Shown here piece after piece: positions 36,755 through 44,158 of a stretch of 64,000 bases of DNA. How positions within the stretch are numbered: the stretch's first letter is position 1; every line of letters begins with the position of its first letter. A program made the position numbers and the translations under genes. The stretch is from Candidatus Nitrotoga sp. SPKER (lineage in GTDB: Bacteria > Pseudomonadota > Gammaproteobacteria > Burkholderiales > Gallionellaceae), in contig QFXG01000016.1 in NCBI GenBank assembly GCA_003402285.1, positions 62,001 to 126,000 of the forward strand, read 5' to 3'. A model generated the notes under the pieces. The model worked only from the letters and a program-made list of their open reading frames with translations, was not told where the DNA came from and did not search any database.

Positions 36755-36832
36755 AGAATCTCACAACTCAATAATCAAAAAAACAGGCTAACGCATTGCG
36801 GTCATTTTGGCGAGAAGCAAAAATATAAAACT

Positions 36833-36895
36833 ATGGAAGGCAACTTGTATGGAAGGGTCGGAGCGGACCTCGCGGTTGAAGCGCAACGACCATTT
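36833..36895 (+). pseudogene. Duplicated 3' tail of the Hsp70-like gene
   Basis: These 21 codons read MEGNLYGRVGADLAVEAQRP and correspond to the end of the Hsp70-like protein (MEGDLFGSVGAGLAVEAQRR, 35720-35785). They are about 1.1 kb further on, beyond the dehydrogenase gene. The bases differ at many third positions, so the duplication or a lost paralogue is old. It marks the left edge of the next accessory patch. Confidence 0.75.
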
Positions 36896-37007
36896 GCTGC
36901 ATCAGCCAGAGATCGTATCTGTCGCCATCGAACAATTGGGAGAGAACATCGCATTAAATGAAGCGACATAAGTTACGCCATTTTGTATATTATTGATAAT
37001 GTAAAAA

Positions 37008-37288
37008 ATGCTTAATTTGACCAACATTATCGGTTTTGATTGGGACGACGGTAATGACCGTAAGAACGATAAGCACGGTGTTTCAATGTCAGAAACAGAG
37101 CAGTTATTTTTTAATGATCCGCTGCTTCTGCTAAAGATGCCAAACACAGCCAGGAGGAATCGCGCATTCACGCATCGGGCAAAACTGACGAAGGACGGAT
37201 GTGGCACATTACTTTTACCCTTCGAAAAAAGAACACGTTAATTCGAGTTATTTTTGCAAGAAATATGCACAAAAAAAGCGAGCAAACT
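37008..37288 (+). pseudogene. brnT: brnT toxin gene with a frameshift
   Basis: The first part (LTNIIGFDWDDGNDRKNDKHGVSMSE, then EQLFFNDPLLLL) is a classical BrnT RelE-like RNase toxin. Near 37160-37175 the frame changes. The continuation HASGKTDEGRMWHITFTLR, then TLIRVIFARNMHKK, lies in another frame and matches the BrnT C-terminus. One indel therefore breaks the toxin. The second frame runs directly into brnA without a stop, so a fused reading frame exists from 37199. In intact systems the toxin blocks translation and is neutralised by BrnA. Confidence 0.8.
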
Positions 37289-37555
37289 ATGAGAAAGCAA
37301 CTTAAACCCCTTCTAAAATTCGCTAACGAAGCGGAAGAGCGGAGCTTTGGGAAAAGCTACGATTCATCTGAATATATGGATTGGCGTAAAGCTCAGCGTA
37401 TTGTGCTACCCAAACTGAGACCGACTACCAAGACCATTTCCTTGCGTCTGCCGCAGCACTTATTGGACTCGATAAAATCAGCGGCCAATTCGCGTGACGT
37501 ACCCTATCAGTCACTGATAAAAGTGTGGCTGCAAGACAAGCTGCATAGCAATTAA
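37289..37555 (+). CDS. brnA: BrnA-type antitoxin
   Basis: I take ATG 37289 as start, giving 88 residues that begin KQLKPLLKFANEAEERSFG. The N-terminal part is the BrnA toxin-binding region with YMDWRKAQRIVLPKLRPT. The C-terminus is a ribbon-helix-helix DNA-binding domain (TKTISLRLPQHLLDSIK). The upstream toxin is frameshifted, so this is probably an orphan antitoxin. The intact reading frame suggests either recent toxin loss or retained regulation. An intact but distinct brnT-brnA pair lies at 57034-57568. Confidence 0.82.
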   Translation: MRKQLKPLLKFANEAEERSFGKSYDSSEYMDWRKAQRIVLPKLRPTTKTISLRLPQHLLDSIKSAANSRDVPYQSLIKVWLQDKLHSN

Positions 37556-37587
37556 ATTCGAGTCTACATTTTCCAATTTTCAAAATT

Positions 37588-38370
37588 ATGCACGCACTCG
37601 CCTACAGCAATACTCAGGACTCCATAAGCTGGAATGGCATTCAGTTTGCTTATGGGATCGAGTTCAATGCTTTCATGGCTGATGAGGTTACTGCACGTCT
37701 GCATGACGAGGTCGGCAAGGCCGACTTCACCGCCCATCTGAATAGTCTCGCCTCCACAGGGTTCGCGCAAGAAAACCTGCAAGTCATTCTGGAAGCAGAA
37801 CAACCTGAAGAACGCGACTGGGCGGTAGGTGAAGCGTTAGCCGAAGCTTGGCTGAGCCGCGAGCATGGCGTGGTCTGGCCCTGGAATATGGAGCGTGACA
37901 AGCGTACGCCCCAGGCCAGTCTTCCCGGCGCTGACTTAGTGGGGTTTGTCACTCAAGGCTGCGAAACACGTTTGGTGTTGGGGGAAGTCAAAAGCTCTTC
38001 CGATAGCCGCACGCCGCCGAACGTAATGACGGGGCGCAGCGGCATGGCTCATCAGTTGGAAAATTTGGTTACGGACACAAGTTTGTTGTTTACGCTGCTT
38101 CGCTGGTTGCAGCCGCGCTGCCGTGACAATATTTCTAAGCCATTGTTTGATGCGGCAGTAGGTTTGCTGCTCCAGACGGGCAACAAGGCAATGACGTTGT
38201 TTGGCGTCTTGGTGCGCGACACACAGCCTGACGAGCTTGACCTCCGTAGCCGTGGCGAACATTTAAGCAGCATCGTTCAATCGCCTGCCCGTTGCAACTT
38301 GGTGGCGCTCTATCTCCCTTGCCTGGTTTCCAGTCTCCCTGATCTTGTTCAAGTGGGAGGCGGATCATGA
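37588..38370 (+). CDS. Putative HamA-like nuclease (DUF1837-like) of a Hachiman-type system
   Basis: A 260-residue protein with a plausible PD-(D/E)xK-type nuclease core: E82 in VGEALAEAWLS, D116 in LPGADLVGF, and E133-x-K135 in RLVLGEVKSSS. The size and motif order agree with HamA of the Hachiman anti-phage system, which pairs a DUF1837 nuclease with a Ski2-like helicase. The next gene is such a helicase and overlaps it by ATGA, so the two are translationally coupled. Family assignment by eye is tentative; another nuclease-helicase defence pair is the main alternative. It starts 32 bases after brnA. Confidence 0.65.
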   Translation: MHALAYSNTQDSISWNGIQFAYGIEFNAFMADEVTARLHDEVGKADFTAHLNSLASTGFAQENLQVILEAEQPEERDWAVGEALAEAWLSREHGVVWPWNMERDKRTPQASLPGADLVGFVTQGCETRLVLGEVKSSSDSRTPPNVMTGRSGMAHQLENLVTDTSLLFTLLRWLQPRCRDNISKPLFDAAVGLLLQTGNKAMTLFGVLVRDTQPDELDLRSRGEHLSSIVQSPARCNLVALYLPCLVSSLPDLVQVGGGS

Positions 38371-41300
38371 GCCACTGGATGCTGGAATCGCTAGGCGATA
38401 TGCGCGCCCAAGCGTTGCATGAGGCGGCGCGTACCCAGGTGCTGAGCGAGCTTTCGAGTTTGCCATATGAAGTGGACTACAGCTTGATCGAGCGGGTTGC
38501 GCAAGTGTTGGAAACCGTGGTGATGGATTTGTTGCTCAGTCCATCCGATGAGAACGGGCAACTGCTTACGCTGCGCCAGTGTGCAGCGGATGCCTATCGT
38601 CTCTATCGCGTACTGCCTGCGCAAAAAACTGCGCTGGCTGAAGCAGAGCTGCACTTGCGCCAGAGCTCACTGGCCGTGCTGGGCGATCTTGGCGCTGATG
38701 CGGCGCGCAATTTGCGCGAGCGAGAATGGCCCGTTCTTGAGCTTGAATCCGAGGACTGGCGCACACGCACCCTGTGTACGATCATCGACATCTGGCTGCG
38801 CTTGATCCGCAAGCGTGGATGGGATGACCGCGACACAGTTCTGCAACGCATCGCCATGCTGCGGCAAGCGCAGGAGGCCTTCGAGGCTAGCTATCTCAAA
38901 AATGCAGCTGGCAGCGGGGCTAGGGCGGCAGCGCTCGAGTTGATGGCGCTTTACCACTTGGCGAAAGCGGCGGAAATTCTCGCGCTGTATGTGACTGACG
39001 GTGTGGTCGAAGGCAACTTCCAGATCAACATCCTCCTGGACATACAATTCGACCGCGCCATAGCGGCATCCCAGGCCAGCGCTTTTTTTCAATTGGAACC
39101 GCTTATCCGTTTGTTGGCCGCGACGGCGCAGCAAATGGTCAGAAATGCGCTGTGGTCGGTTACCCGTGCGGTCAATTCGCGTGTAACGAAGTTTGTTCAG
39201 ACGCTGGTCGCCAAGGGGCGAGGTGACAAGGCATTGTTTGATGTATTGCCGCCTCAGCGCCGCGCGTTGGCAGAGCAGGGTTTGCTCGGTTCCAGTCGTC
39301 GCGCCGTAGTGGTGAGTTTGCCGACCTCCAGCGGCAAGACCCTGATCGCCCAGTTTCGCATCCTTCAGGCATTAAACCAGTTTGAACACGAGCGGGGTTG
39401 GGTCGTCTATCTTGCGCCCACGCGCACGTTGGTACGTCAGGTCGCGCGGCGGCTCAGGCGCGATTTTGAGCCGCTCGGTGTGGTGGTGGAACAAGTGAGT
39501 CCCGCGCTCGAAGTCGATGGCGTGGAATCGGGATTGCTGAGCGAACAAAATGCGAGTCGCGCGTTCCGTATTCTCGTGACGACCCCTGAAAAGCTCGACC
39601 TCATGTTGCGCCAGGATTGGGAAGAAAAAATCGGTCGCCCGCTGACACTGGTGGTGGTTGACGAGGCGCATAACATCCAGGAAGGCGCGCGCGGCTTAAA
39701 GCTGGAGTTGCTGCTTGCGACAATCAATTCCGAATGCAGATTGGCGCAGTTCCTTTTGCTGACACCGTTTATCAGCAATGCACGTGAAGTTGCCCGCTGG
39801 CTCGGAGAGGCCAATTCAGACGACATCAGTTTGGCGATAGATTGGCAGCCTAATGATCGGGTGATCGGCATTGTGAAGCCTGAGAAAGGGGCGCTCATCA
39901 AAGGCAAGAGCTACGATTATCAGCTTAGTCTGGAAACGGTGCATACCACTCGCGCTACGTTAAATATTGATGAGTTGGTTTCTCTCGGCAAAGACCCGAG
40001 CTGCAAGAAAACATTCAGTAAAATTTCCACATCGGCTCACGTTGCAGTGGCCACCGCACAACAGATAAAAAAACGCGGGCCGGTGATCGTCATGCACCAA
40101 ACGCCAAGAAACGTTTGGTCTTTAGCCAGCAAGCTGAAGTCTGGCTGCAATCGCCACACAGGAATCTCCGACAAATTGAAGTTGGCGCAAGATTATCTTG
40201 CGCTTGAAATGGGGCAGGATTTTCCGCTGATAGACTTGCTTGCCCATGGCATTGGTGTCCATCACGCAGGCTTGTCCGATGATACTCGCGCCTTGATGGA
40301 GTGGCTGTTTGAAGAACAGGAACTAAATTTTCTGGTCGCCACGACGACGATTGCCCAAGGCGTCAATTTTCCTGTGATGGGTGTGGTTATGGCATCGCAC
40401 CAATATCCATACGGCCAGGATATACCACCTGCGGATTTCTGGAATATCGCTGGCCGTGCGGGAAGGGTGGATCATGGCAGTTTGGGCGTGGTTGCTTTGG
40501 CTGCTGGCGATGATGTTAAGGCCGATAAACTTAGAGAGTTCATTCATAGGCAAACCGGCGAACTTAACTCGGCATTGATTCGTCTTGTTGCGGATGCAGG
40601 CGATTTGATTGACGATCTTCAGGGCATCGTTTATTTCAGGCCAGAGTGGTCAGCGTTTTTGCAATACCTCGCGCACACCTACAAACAGATGGGGCGACCG
40701 CAGTCTTTTGCAGACCAGATCGAGCAAATTTTGCGCGGCACGTTAGGGTTCGGCAAGCTCAGAGCTGCAAATGCTAATCAGGCCAATCGGCTGCTTATTA
40801 GTATCCGTACTTATGCGGACTATTTGAGCCAACCTAGCCAGCCGTTGAAGCTGGTAGACAGCACGGGCTTCTCTTTGCAAAGCATCAAGACCGCCATGGT
40901 CGCGGCGGGGCAGGAAGGCATAGGAAAAGAAGCGTGGAATGCCGAAACATTATTCACCAGAGAAAGTGACATGCTGAAAAAAATGATGGGGGTCTTGCTC
41001 AAGGTGCCCGAACTCAGGGAAAACCTCGAAGCTGTCACCGGGAAAGAAGGCTCCAATGGCGACAAGCTGGCCTTGATTCTTAAAGACTGGGTGGGCGGAT
41101 CTCCTATACCCGATATTGCCCAGCGCTATTTCTCCAAGGATGGACGCAGTGAAACAGATGCACTAACTGAATGCGGACGAAACCTCTTCGGTAAGCTGAC
41201 GCAAACAGCGGCTTGGGGCTTGGGGGCTTTGCTGTCGATCACCGGGGGCGACATCCCGGAAGAAGAGCGGCAGTCATTGAACAACTTGGCATCACGGGTT

Positions 41301-41528
41301 TATTACGGGGTGACCGATGAGAATGCCATCGCATTGCGTTTGCTGGGCATCCCTCGCATGGCAGCCGAGCCCCTGGCCTCGCAGATGCGCGGCAACGCCC
41401 AGCGCCCACTCACTGAAATTCGCGATGTGCTTCGCAGCGCGGATTCATCATTCTGGGATCATGCACTCGGATCAAAAAAGGGACAGATCTATAGAAAAAT
41501 TTGGCGTGTACTGGAAGGACTTGATTGA
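38367..41528 (+). CDS. Ski2-like DEAH helicase, putative HamB of a Hachiman-type system
   Basis: A 1053-residue superfamily 2 helicase. After a ~300-residue N-terminal helical domain come motif I (SLPTSSGKTLIAQF, about 317-330), motif Ia (YLAPTRTLVRQV), TTPEKLDLM, motif II DEAH (about 431-434) and motif III-like LLTPFIS. The second RecA domain has GVHHAGLSDDTR, VATTTIAQGVNFP and NIAGRAGRVD (about 691-700), the Ski2/Brr2 pattern. A ~300-residue C-terminal helical region follows. Motif III lacks the usual Ser-Ala-Thr. In Hachiman, HamB senses DNA intermediates and controls the HamA nuclease. Partner, length and coupling fit that system. Confidence 0.75.
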   Translation: MSHWMLESLGDMRAQALHEAARTQVLSELSSLPYEVDYSLIERVAQVLETVVMDLLLSPSDENGQLLTLRQCAADAYRLYRVLPAQKTALAEAELHLRQSSLAVLGDLGADAARNLREREWPVLELESEDWRTRTLCTIIDIWLRLIRKRGWDDRDTVLQRIAMLRQAQEAFEASYLKNAAGSGARAAALELMALYHLAKAAEILALYVTDGVVEGNFQINILLDIQFDRAIAASQASAFFQLEPLIRLLAATAQQMVRNALWSVTRAVNSRVTKFVQTLVAKGRGDKALFDVLPPQRRALAEQGLLGSSRRAVVVSLPTSSGKTLIAQFRILQALNQFEHERGWVVYLAPTRTLVRQVARRLRRDFEPLGVVVEQVSPALEVDGVESGLLSEQNASRAFRILVTTPEKLDLMLRQDWEEKIGRPLTLVVVDEAHNIQEGARGLKLELLLATINSECRLAQFLLLTPFISNAREVARWLGEANSDDISLAIDWQPNDRVIGIVKPEKGALIKGKSYDYQLSLETVHTTRATLNIDELVSLGKDPSCKKTFSKISTSAHVAVATAQQIKKRGPVIVMHQTPRNVWSLASKLKSGCNRHTGISDKLKLAQDYLALEMGQDFPLIDLLAHGIGVHHAGLSDDTRALMEWLFEEQELNFLVATTTIAQGVNFPVMGVVMASHQYPYGQDIPPADFWNIAGRAGRVDHGSLGVVALAAGDDVKADKLREFIHRQTGELNSALIRLVADAGDLIDDLQGIVYFRPEWSAFLQYLAHTYKQMGRPQSFADQIEQILRGTLGFGKLRAANANQANRLLISIRTYADYLSQPSQPLKLVDSTGFSLQSIKTAMVAAGQEGIGKEAWNAETLFTRESDMLKKMMGVLLKVPELRENLEAVTGKEGSNGDKLALILKDWVGGSPIPDIAQRYFSKDGRSETDALTECGRNLFGKLTQTAAWGLGALLSITGGDIPEEERQSLNNLASRVYYGVTDENAIALRLLGIPRMAAEPLASQMRGNAQRPLTEIRDVLRSADSSFWDHALGSKKGQIYRKIWRVLEGLD

Positions 41529-41553
41529 TTCACACTTCAATTAGCATTGATAT

Positions 41554-42210
41554 ATGAACCTTAATTCCGATTTTTCCCAACGTGTTGTCATCGAAGCTGA
41601 CACTCTGACCCGGTCGTCCGGCACATCAAATGGAATTGAACAAAAAATACTTGAGCAGGATGGAGCGGAAACAGCACGCACCACATCCATTGTGCGCTAG
41701 GCCACCGGGACAAGTTTTCCTAATCAGGGGCACGATCTTGGTGTAGAGATTTTCGTACTGGAAGGTATTTTCAGCGATAAAAACGGAGACTATGGTCCGG
41801 GCAGCTATATTAAGAATGCCTCAGGCTCTATGCATGCATCACGTTCTGCTGAGGGCTGCACTTTATTCGTCAAGCGCGGCCACCTGAGCGTGAGAGATCG
41901 TCAAAGCGTGGTTGTGGATACACTCAAAACGAACTGGCATCCAGGGCTGGTACCCGGCCTTGCGGTTATGCCTCTATCCAACTTTGAAACCCAAAATACT
42001 GCCCTGGTGCGCTGGTCGCCTGAAACTTACTTCAGCGCGCATCGGCACTATGGTGGTGAGGAAATACTGGTGATCTCCGGGATTTTTGAGGATGAGCATG
42101 GGTGCTATCCGCAAGGCACCTGGATACGCAGCCCGCATTTGAGTCTGCACCAGCCTTACAGCAAAGAGGGTTGCACGATTTTGGTCAAGACCAGACATTT
42201 ACCTTTTTGA
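41554..42210 (+). pseudogene. Double-cupin (ChrR-like) gene with one internal stop
   Basis: A single frame of 218 codons is broken only by TAG at 41698-41700. The frame before it (ending TTSIVR) and after it (ATGTSFPNQGHDLGVEIFVL) joins into the first cupin domain. The second half repeats the pattern (FSAHRHYGGEEILVISGIF). The stop replaces the position where relatives usually have Tyr (VRYAxGxxF), so one base change from TAT or TAC explains it. The family is the anti-ECF-sigma/ChrR-type cupin group. A product initiating at 41830 would lack the first domain. Confidence 0.8.
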
Positions 42211-42467
42211 AAGTTGGGTTCGGTCAAAAAATACCGAGACCCTGAAAATCACATTCTTACTCGCTTTTATCATCAACTTTTTGCTGGTTTATACATCAGA
42301 CACCTTAGTAGAGCGCATGTAATTCACCCTTAGGTTTGCTTCAAGATGAGCTTCTGATTTTCATCCAGATTTTTGCCTGCAAACTGCTTTCCCTAGCGAT
42401 ATTGTTACAAGACAGTGCCTTTTTCATCGTTGCTCGCGTAAAATAAAAATCCATTAAGGAGTCAGTC

Positions 42468-43847
42468 ATGTTTATAAGCGTTTTAGATCTTTTCAAAATC
42501 GGGATCGGCCCGTCCAGCTCACACACCGTCGGCCCCATGGTGGCCGCGAAGGAATTTACCGGTTGCGTTGAAAAATATTTTTCGTCACACCCGTACATCC
42601 CGAACAGCCACATACGCTGTACTCTCAAGGGCTCTTTGGCGTTTACCGGCAAGGGCCACAGTACCGATCGCGCGATTGCCCTGGGGTTGCATGGCTACAC
42701 AGCGGTGGGCCTGGCGGGCGAAAATGTCGATAGCGTGATTGGGCGCATCTGGGGCAAGGGTTGCATTGCAGTGGGTGATCAACTATCCATTCTGTTTGTT
42801 CCAGAACAGCATATCGTGTTTGACCGTGGCGCACCGCTGCCGCAGCACCCCAATGGCATGATCTTTGAACTGATAGGGCCGTCCGAAGAATCATTGCTGA
42901 GCGAGACTTATTTTTCTATCGGCGGTGGCTTCATCAGCACCCTGACGGAAATCTCGGAACTGGTTGCGCCGCTCAAAATGGAATCCGTCAAGTCCTGCCC
43001 CTATCCTTTCAATTCTGCTCGCTCAATGCTGAGAATGGCGCAGGAGAGCAAACTTTCTATAGCTGAAATGAAGCTTAAAAACGAGCTCGCACATCACTCC
43101 GAAGAAGCGCTGAATCAAGGCCTGGACGCCGTCTGGAATGCCATGCAAGTTTGCATCCGACAGGGTCTTGTAGCCGAAGGCATTTTGCCCGGTGGCCTGA
43201 ATGTGCCGCGGAGAGCAAAGAATCTGCATCACCAACTAATGAGTCAGCCGACAACGGCGAATGTCAACGATTGGCTATGCGCCTACGCCATGGCCGTGAA
43301 TGAAGAAAATGCAGCCGGTCACATGGTGGTCACCGCCCCCACCAACGGGGCTGCCGGCGTCATCCCCGCCGTGCTTTACCAGCTCATCACCCATGAAAAT
43401 GGCACAGCGGAACAGGTGCGGGATTTCTTGCTCACCGCCAGTGCGATTGGCGGCATCATCAAACACCGCAGCTCTATCTCCGGTGCCGAAGTGGGATGCC
43501 AGGGAGAAGTTGGTTCTGCTGCTTCCATGGCGGCTGCCGGGCTGTGTGCCGCACGCGGAGGCACGCCCGAGCAGATAGAAAATGCCGCAGAGATCGCTCT
43601 GGAACACCACCTCGGCATGACCTGCGACCCGGTAAAAGGGCTGGTGCAGGTTCCCTGCATAGAACGCAACGGCTTTGGCGCGATTAAGGCACACACCGCC
43701 GCTTCACTGGCTATGCGCGGTAACGGCCAGCATTTTATGCCCTTGGATAGCTGCATCGCCGCGATGAAACAAACCGGGCTGGAAATGTCTACGAAATACA
43801 AGGAAACCTCCCTGGGAGGTCTGGCCACAAGCATTACCGAATGTTGA
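42468..43847 (+). CDS. sdaA: L-serine dehydratase, single-chain iron-sulfur type
   Basis: SdaA deaminates L-serine to pyruvate and ammonia with a labile [4Fe-4S] cluster. The N-terminal beta domain begins SVLDLFKIGIGPSSSHTVGP, the family signature. The alpha domain has VTAPTNGAAGVIPAVLY and SAIGGIIKHRSSISGAEVG. Cluster Cys residues are likely in GCQGEVG, LGMTCDPVKGLVQVPCIERN and the C-terminal SITEC. Length 459. AAGGAG precedes the start. Confidence 0.96.
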   Translation: MFISVLDLFKIGIGPSSSHTVGPMVAAKEFTGCVEKYFSSHPYIPNSHIRCTLKGSLAFTGKGHSTDRAIALGLHGYTAVGLAGENVDSVIGRIWGKGCIAVGDQLSILFVPEQHIVFDRGAPLPQHPNGMIFELIGPSEESLLSETYFSIGGGFISTLTEISELVAPLKMESVKSCPYPFNSARSMLRMAQESKLSIAEMKLKNELAHHSEEALNQGLDAVWNAMQVCIRQGLVAEGILPGGLNVPRRAKNLHHQLMSQPTTANVNDWLCAYAMAVNEENAAGHMVVTAPTNGAAGVIPAVLYQLITHENGTAEQVRDFLLTASAIGGIIKHRSSISGAEVGCQGEVGSAASMAAAGLCAARGGTPEQIENAAEIALEHHLGMTCDPVKGLVQVPCIERNGFGAIKAHTAASLAMRGNGQHFMPLDSCIAAMKQTGLEMSTKYKETSLGGLATSITEC

Positions 43848-43858
43848 TGCGCTAACAC

Positions 43859-43879
43859 GGGCTGCGTCAGCGCAGCCCC
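43859..43879 (+). terminator. Possible terminator hairpin after sdaA
   Basis: GGGCTGCG and CGCAGCCC pair around a four-base loop 14 bases after the sdaA stop. There is no T-run, so it could be a Rho-assisted stop or a 3' stabilising hairpin. Confidence 0.5.
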
Positions 43880-43882
43880 ATT

Positions 43883-44158
43883 GACGAGCGTGTTGAACGC
43901 GTTTTGCGTGACGTCAGTTTATGGGAAGTAGCCCCCAACTGACTGGATGTGTCAGCGCTGGCATTGGAACCTTCCATCCTGCTAATAGATAAGCCGTGCG
44001 GCGCACTCAATCCGAGTACATCGGCTGTCGTCGAAGAACTCATACAGCACAATTGCTATACAGTCGTGATCGAGGCTCACAATCTTGCGCAGATGCGCTG
44101 AGTTGCCAATTACGCGGTATTTTTTGGATGGCAGACCCTGCTGGGAAACTCATCATGA
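43883..44158 (+). pseudogene. pstB: pstB remnant (phosphate ABC transporter ATPase)
   Basis: The plus strand reads ERVERVLRDVSLWEVA, like the PstB segment before the signature motif. The signature region itself is deleted or scrambled. It then reads LALEPSILLIDKPCGALNPS, VVEELIQHN and YTVVIEAHNLAQMR, matching Walker B, the D-loop and the H-loop of PstB. In-frame stops (near 43936 and 44099), an altered Walker B (DKP for DEP) and loss of the first half show a dead fragment. No other pst or phoU genes are in the window. Confidence 0.8.

Follow-up and report, generated by a model that had tools for sequence, protein, structure and literature searches.

The window, i.e. the whole stretch of 64,000 nucleotides of Candidatus Nitrotoga sp. 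SPKER that was analysed, contained two adjacent genes on the plus strand. The upstream gene (ORF A, 37588..38370) encoded a putative HamA-like nuclease of 260 residues, which was assigned to PDC-M23A by the PADLOC model PDLC04527, its motif and a fold model. The downstream gene (ORF B, 38367..41528) encoded a HamB-like Ski2-type SF2 helicase of 1053 residues, which was assigned to PDC-M23B by the PADLOC model PDLC04531, Foldseek and its motifs. The stop codon of ORF A and the start codon of ORF B overlapped in the sequence ATGA (38367..38370, plus strand), as the original prediction had it, pointing to translational coupling, and this 4-bp overlap recurred in most of the complete relatives. 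Compared with three relatives, A had a dN/dS of ~0.1 and B one of ~0.08, therefore both genes were considered to be under purifying selection.

The pair was preceded by a brnT toxin remnant (37008..37288, plus strand) and an intact brnA antitoxin gene of the CopG/BrnA type (37289..37555, plus strand; PF12441, E 1.8e-26). The match of brnT to PF04365 reached 26.7 bits (cut-off 34.5) and covered the profile positions 1-43 only, and the halves of the gene lay in different frames. A ChrR-like cupin gene (41554..42210, plus strand, read in frame 2) followed the pair; it carried an in-frame TAG, and its 3' part matched PF12973 with an E value of 3.2e-30. Both the brnTA genes upstream and the broken cupin gene downstream had been recognized originally.

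Together, brnTA, the pair and the cupin gene made up a 5.4-kb insertion (36831..42249) absent from the congeners; in blastn comparisons, conservation extended to 36830 and resumed at ~42250. In four congeners (G003, G006, G008 and G017), the gap between garR and araC was a few hundred bases or less and held no gene. In a further congener, G015, brnA occupied the corresponding slot and the pair was missing, therefore the pair was either added next to a brnTA or lost beside one. A second, separate insertion within this slot (42317..44059), also visible as a blastn gap in the congeners, held an L-serine dehydratase gene that was present in 2 of the 19 genomes of the genus. The pair sits in a small variable slot that is empty in congeners, not in a large defence island. 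The "typical defence-island setting" proposed earlier held only in part for the window itself, whereas the relatives of the pair were strongly tied to defence operons.

At the left edge of the insertion, positions 36831-36900 resembled, when translated, the C-terminal end of an HSP70/YegD-like protein (MEGNLYGRVGADLAVEAQRPF). The resemblance to the end of the nearby HSP70 gene was seen at the protein level only, a nucleotide duplication of that gene end was not found by blastn, and G015 seemed to carry the adjoining part. This segment may be the scar left by a divergent HSP70 locus.

No R-M gene was found beside the pair in the window, and the hsdS genes of the same genome lay on other contigs; on these grounds, the pair was rejected as a leftover of an R-M-embedded copy. 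The same genome encoded a true Hachiman system (G000 contig C17, ~220.9-223.9 kb; L029:10902-13940), in which HamA matched PF08878 with an E value of 2e-57 and was immediately followed by a 701-aa HamB2.

The nuclease gene and its relation to HamA

ORF A matched the PDC-M23A model (PDLC04527) of PADLOC-DB 2.0 over residues 4-254 of 260 with an E value of 1.5e-100. The next-best PADLOC match outside PDC-M23 was a weak one to HamA1 (E 4.9e-4). A Pfam search with E values up to 1 returned nothing for ORF A, PF08878 (DUF1837) included, no similarity to solved structures was found at the sequence level, and no ORF A matches were found on named phages or plasmids.

The catalytic pattern originally noted in the 260-residue protein was located by alignment at E82 (37831-37833), D116 (37933-37935) and E133-x-K135 (37984-37992), all on the plus strand. 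When the window protein was aligned with ten homologues of 33-75% identity, E82, D116, G132, E133 and K135 were invariant in all 11 M23A proteins. The nuclease of Hachiman, HamA, is a DUF1837 protein whose active site has the motif D-GEXK (PMC12799240), of which E138 and K140 have been shown by mutation (PMC12278908). In a joint alignment, D116, G132, E133 and K135 of M23A were collinear with the D-GExK of HamA.

The similarity was further assessed by profile-profile comparison, in which M23A matched a set of long-type HamA proteins with a probability of 92-93 and an E value of 2.8e-7. A comparison of one HamA group with another gave a probability of 94.6 and an E value of 6.4e-8, thirty column-shuffled decoys gave at most 1.4, and the unrelated families DUF1016, HsdS and HsdR remained below 0.4. 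Judged by these profiles, M23A resembles one HamA group almost as strongly as two HamA groups resemble each other. In a search of 1156 ORFs with an HMM of the HamA set, all 11 M23A proteins outranked every non-HamA ORF, and in the reverse search with the M23A HMM, the HamA proteins ranked next after the M23A members themselves.

The AF2 model of A had a pLDDT of 81 and a pTM of 0.81. Along the chain, a helix with E82 came first, followed by a strand just behind D116, a strand with ExK, helices, a strand, a helix and a last strand. This order is the one expected of a PD-(D/E)xK core, with which the predicted model of A appears to agree. The top fold match in the viral library BFVD was a phage protein annotated as "Anti-bacteriophage protein A/HamA C-terminal domain-containing" (E 7.7e-6, probability 1.00). 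A Foldseek search of the PDB library with the A model returned nothing significant, HamA itself included. Because the PDB contains the HamAB complex, this result weighs weakly against a relation to HamA; because the viral library returned a HamA-domain protein, it was read as uninformative and not as a refutation.

The helicase gene and its relation to HamB

ORF B matched the PDC-M23B model (PDLC04531) of PADLOC-DB 2.0 over residues 2-1051 of 1053 with an E value of 0. Its strongest PADLOC match outside PDC-M23 was HamB1 (E 2e-59), and Pfam recognized generic helicase domains only. In agreement with the predicted Ski2-type DEAH helicase, the Walker A motif PTSSGKT (39321-39341), the DEAH box (39660-39671) and NIAGRAGR (with GRAGR at 40452-40466) were all intact on the plus strand. 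Motif III, which had been singled out as unusual (LLTPFIS), was indeed so: LLLTPFI (39753-39773, plus strand) was near-invariant across M23B and, as LLLTPFV, in the rhizobial cousins, and the related long HamBs carried SAxLP-like versions. The LLLTPFI motif III of M23B is lineage-specific.

The AF2 model of B was moderately confident (pLDDT 68). It contained ten long N-terminal helices up to residue 282, with the pLDDT below 50 from residue 262 on. In Hachiman, the N-terminal helical bundle of HamB holds HamA (PMC12278908), and the all-helical residues 1-290 of the B model (38367..39236, plus strand) are a candidate equivalent of this bundle.

The top three PDB matches of the B model in Foldseek were the HamB chains 8vx9_B, 8vxy_B and 8vxa_A, with a best E value of 3.3e-18, ahead of Hel308. 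In sequence searches, Ski2-family relatives such as ASCC3 and Brr2 outscored the solved HamB chain. In the helicase tree, M23B grouped with the rhizobial helicases with a support of 99/99, and this clade was tentatively placed with Hel308 rather than HamB, at a poorly supported join (80/68) with long branches.

The rhizobial cousin pairs were observed on plasmids of Ensifer canadensis (L025:6737-11496) and Rhizobium etli (L026:6740-10712), and three plasmid records were found. Each comprised a helicase with ~29% identity to M23B and a protein of 285 aa that showed the pattern D-xQxK and matched no PADLOC model. The Ensifer pair was followed by HamC2 (DUF3223), and the Rhizobium pair lay beside a CBASS operon. 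These cousins possibly represent an uncatalogued HamAB-like branch.

Relationship to Hachiman and a proposed mode of action

The pair is already known as a catalogued defence candidate, since PADLOC-DB lists its two genes as PDC-M23A and PDC-M23B. It had the same gene order as PDC-M23 of PADLOC-DB 2.0 (PDLC04527-04532), and both proteins matched along their full length. PDCs are candidates derived from a guilt-by-embedding approach (preprint of Payne et al. 2024, cited in PMC12988326), and most of them are untested. In the papers searched, PDC-M23 was not mentioned, and neither a published function nor a phage experiment was found for it.

Outside PDC-M23, the best fold match for both subunits was Hachiman (E. 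coli ECOR31; PDB 8vx9, 8vxa, 8vxy), which shares with the pair the order of a nuclease followed by a Ski2-like helicase and the D-GExK motif, and to whose N-terminal helical region a predicted one in B may correspond. The likeness to HamA-HamB in size, order and domain type, on which the original prediction was built, agrees with the HamB1 match and the HamB folds of ORF B. Unlike Hachiman, the pair had no DUF1837 Pfam match, its A protein was beyond BLAST range, its motif III was LLLTPFI and it formed a PADLOC family of its own. It was rejected as a true Hachiman by the curated models, and because it fails the curated HamA models (DUF1837), "related system" is a safer label than "Hachiman subtype". 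Of the proposed "divergent Hachiman subtype or a related, unnamed nuclease-helicase system", the nearness to HamA and HamB stood, as profiles, motif alignment and both folds indicated, whereas "unnamed" did not, the system being PDC-M23. Of the checks suggested at that time, the HMM search gave no DUF1837 match, a weak HamA1 match and a HamB1 match; in structure prediction of the single proteins, the element order of A was that expected of the PD-(D/E)xK core with a viral HamA-domain match, and B found its best PDB matches among HamB chains.

A likeness to AbpAB (E. coli K-12 abpA/abpB), the defence of which is triggered by DNA damage and SSB (PMC10732053), lay in the combination of a HamA-like domain with a helicase. 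However, the nuclease activity of AbpA resides in an additional Cap4 domain, and the catalytic residues are missing from its HamA domain, whereas A, with its 260 residues, gave no Cap4 match and had an intact HamA-like active site of its own. In the helicase tree, AbpB grouped with the short HamBs and not with M23B. The archaeal helicase Hel308/Hjm shares the Ski2-type SF2 core with B, but it has no paired nuclease and its fold score was below that of HamB.

Based on all comparisons, it is probable that the pair is a PDC-M23 system that is distantly related to Hachiman and most likely HamAB-like in action. The homology to HamAB is shown, as are the pairing of the genes, the intact catalytic motifs, the purifying selection and the association with defence operons, and a HamAB-like mechanism would be expected by analogy. 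Judging by homology, A would act as the effector nuclease and B would be the helicase that serves as sensor, and the most likely function would be that of a Hachiman-like DNA-integrity sensor coupled to a suicide nuclease.

In HamAB, a free ssDNA end leads to ATPase activity, by which HamA is unleashed and both phage and host DNA are destroyed (PMC12278908). We proposed that A and B would likewise form a complex, in which the helicase would survey DNA and load on exposed ends or ssDNA arising from phage replication, damage or restriction. The ATP-driven movement of B, relayed via the N-terminal helical region, would then free or switch on the PD-(D/E)xK nuclease, which would degrade DNA and halt the production of phage, and the cell would probably be sacrificed. 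Here the complex, the trigger, the DNA target and the cell suicide are all modelled on HamAB. Restriction fragments or R-M failure may also act as PDC-M23 triggers, a hypothesis that was put forward because relatives sit inside type I R-M operons.

Neighbourhoods of the relatives and alternative explanations

PDC-M23A was found in 2 of 398 genomes of the phylum and in 3 of 158 genomes of the family, and DUF1837 HamA in 10 of 299. Its relatives were found in MAGs with the labels Pseudomonadota, Verrucomicrobiota and Chloroflexota, as well as on IMG/VR contigs. A and B were neighbours at each of the 14 other loci, and in most cases the two genes overlapped slightly. Eight of these loci lay within type I R-M genes or immediately next to them, a count that is not fully independent because L004, L005 and L011 are close relatives (L005 and L011 appear identical to contigs of the family genomes G481 and G565). 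A type I HsdS gene was directly upstream of the pair in L004, L005, L006, L008, L011 and L060. In L059, HsdM was directly upstream and HsdR downstream, HsdR was downstream in L060 too, and in L010 the pair lay between an HsdR fragment and HsdM. One further pair followed BrxL (L024), and another was flanked by the tail and head genes of a phage (tape measure, major capsid, portal) in L062:2182-17889 (IMGVR_UViG_3300032770_001058) and is phage cargo. These neighbourhoods back a defence role and mobility. A weak HamA match and a model agreeing with a nuclease core were obtained for the first protein and a link to defence operons for its homologues; what had been set down beforehand as speaking against the prediction did not occur.

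In L011 and L008, the type I R-M operons that host PDC-M23 also held a PDC-S02 gene (L011:6993-8063 and L008:1513-2676; DUF1016-like, PD-(D/E)xK), so that more than one candidate was embedded in each operon.

Most of the other PDC-M23 loci are embedded in type I R-M or adjoin it, whereas the copy in the window stands on its own. A bolder reading, which is possible but rather unlikely, is that PDC-M23 is a separate HamAB-type lineage that evolved as a built-in second layer of type I R-M operons, which would sense DNA ends or R-M failure and respond with DNA-degrading suicide. The window copy would then have escaped and would work alone, in a genome that also has a classical Hachiman.

It is rather unlikely that PDC-M23 chiefly serves type I R-M as an accessory layer, in which the helicase would answer ends, stalled complexes or inhibition of the restriction enzyme and the nuclease would finish the DNA, and of which the window copy would be a relocated, stand-alone descendant. 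The eight R-M loci among the 14, the several A genes that overlap or abut the stop codon of hsdS or hsdM, and the discovery of PDCs by "guilt-by-embedding" (PMC12988326) all favour such a role. However, according to the ORF lists, the window, Thiomargarita, Gammaproteobacteria, G182 and prophage-borne copies had no adjacent R-M gene, embedding may mean shared regulation or mobility with no working partnership, and the R-M cases include the close relatives already mentioned.

A nuclease-helicase module for DNA repair or plasmid exclusion, Hel308-like and without a role in phage defence, is very unlikely. The resemblance of the helicase to Hel308, PolQ and Brr2 would suit such a module, and two Hachiman-type systems in one genome could divide jobs, but the spread is patchy, as the phylum and family counts indicate, the pairs are placed in defence operons and mobile elements, and the closest fold is HamB, not Hel308. 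Hardly credible is a three-way unit with brnTA, in which the antitoxin gene would drive or guard expression of the pair: brnA does share the strand of the nuclease gene and ends 32 bp before it, but brnT is broken, G015 has brnA without the pair, and the gene directly upstream in most relatives, in a survey covering very small ORFs unsystematically, differs and is usually HsdS.

With the pair regarded as a PDC-M23 system related to Hachiman, an unexplained catalogue entry is now tied to a system of known structures and mechanism, and this tie yields the testable residues E133 and K135 and the DEAH box. As a Hachiman-like pair often lies inside type I R-M operons, it becomes possible to test whether a DNA-integrity sensor is fed by restriction fragments or by R-M failure.
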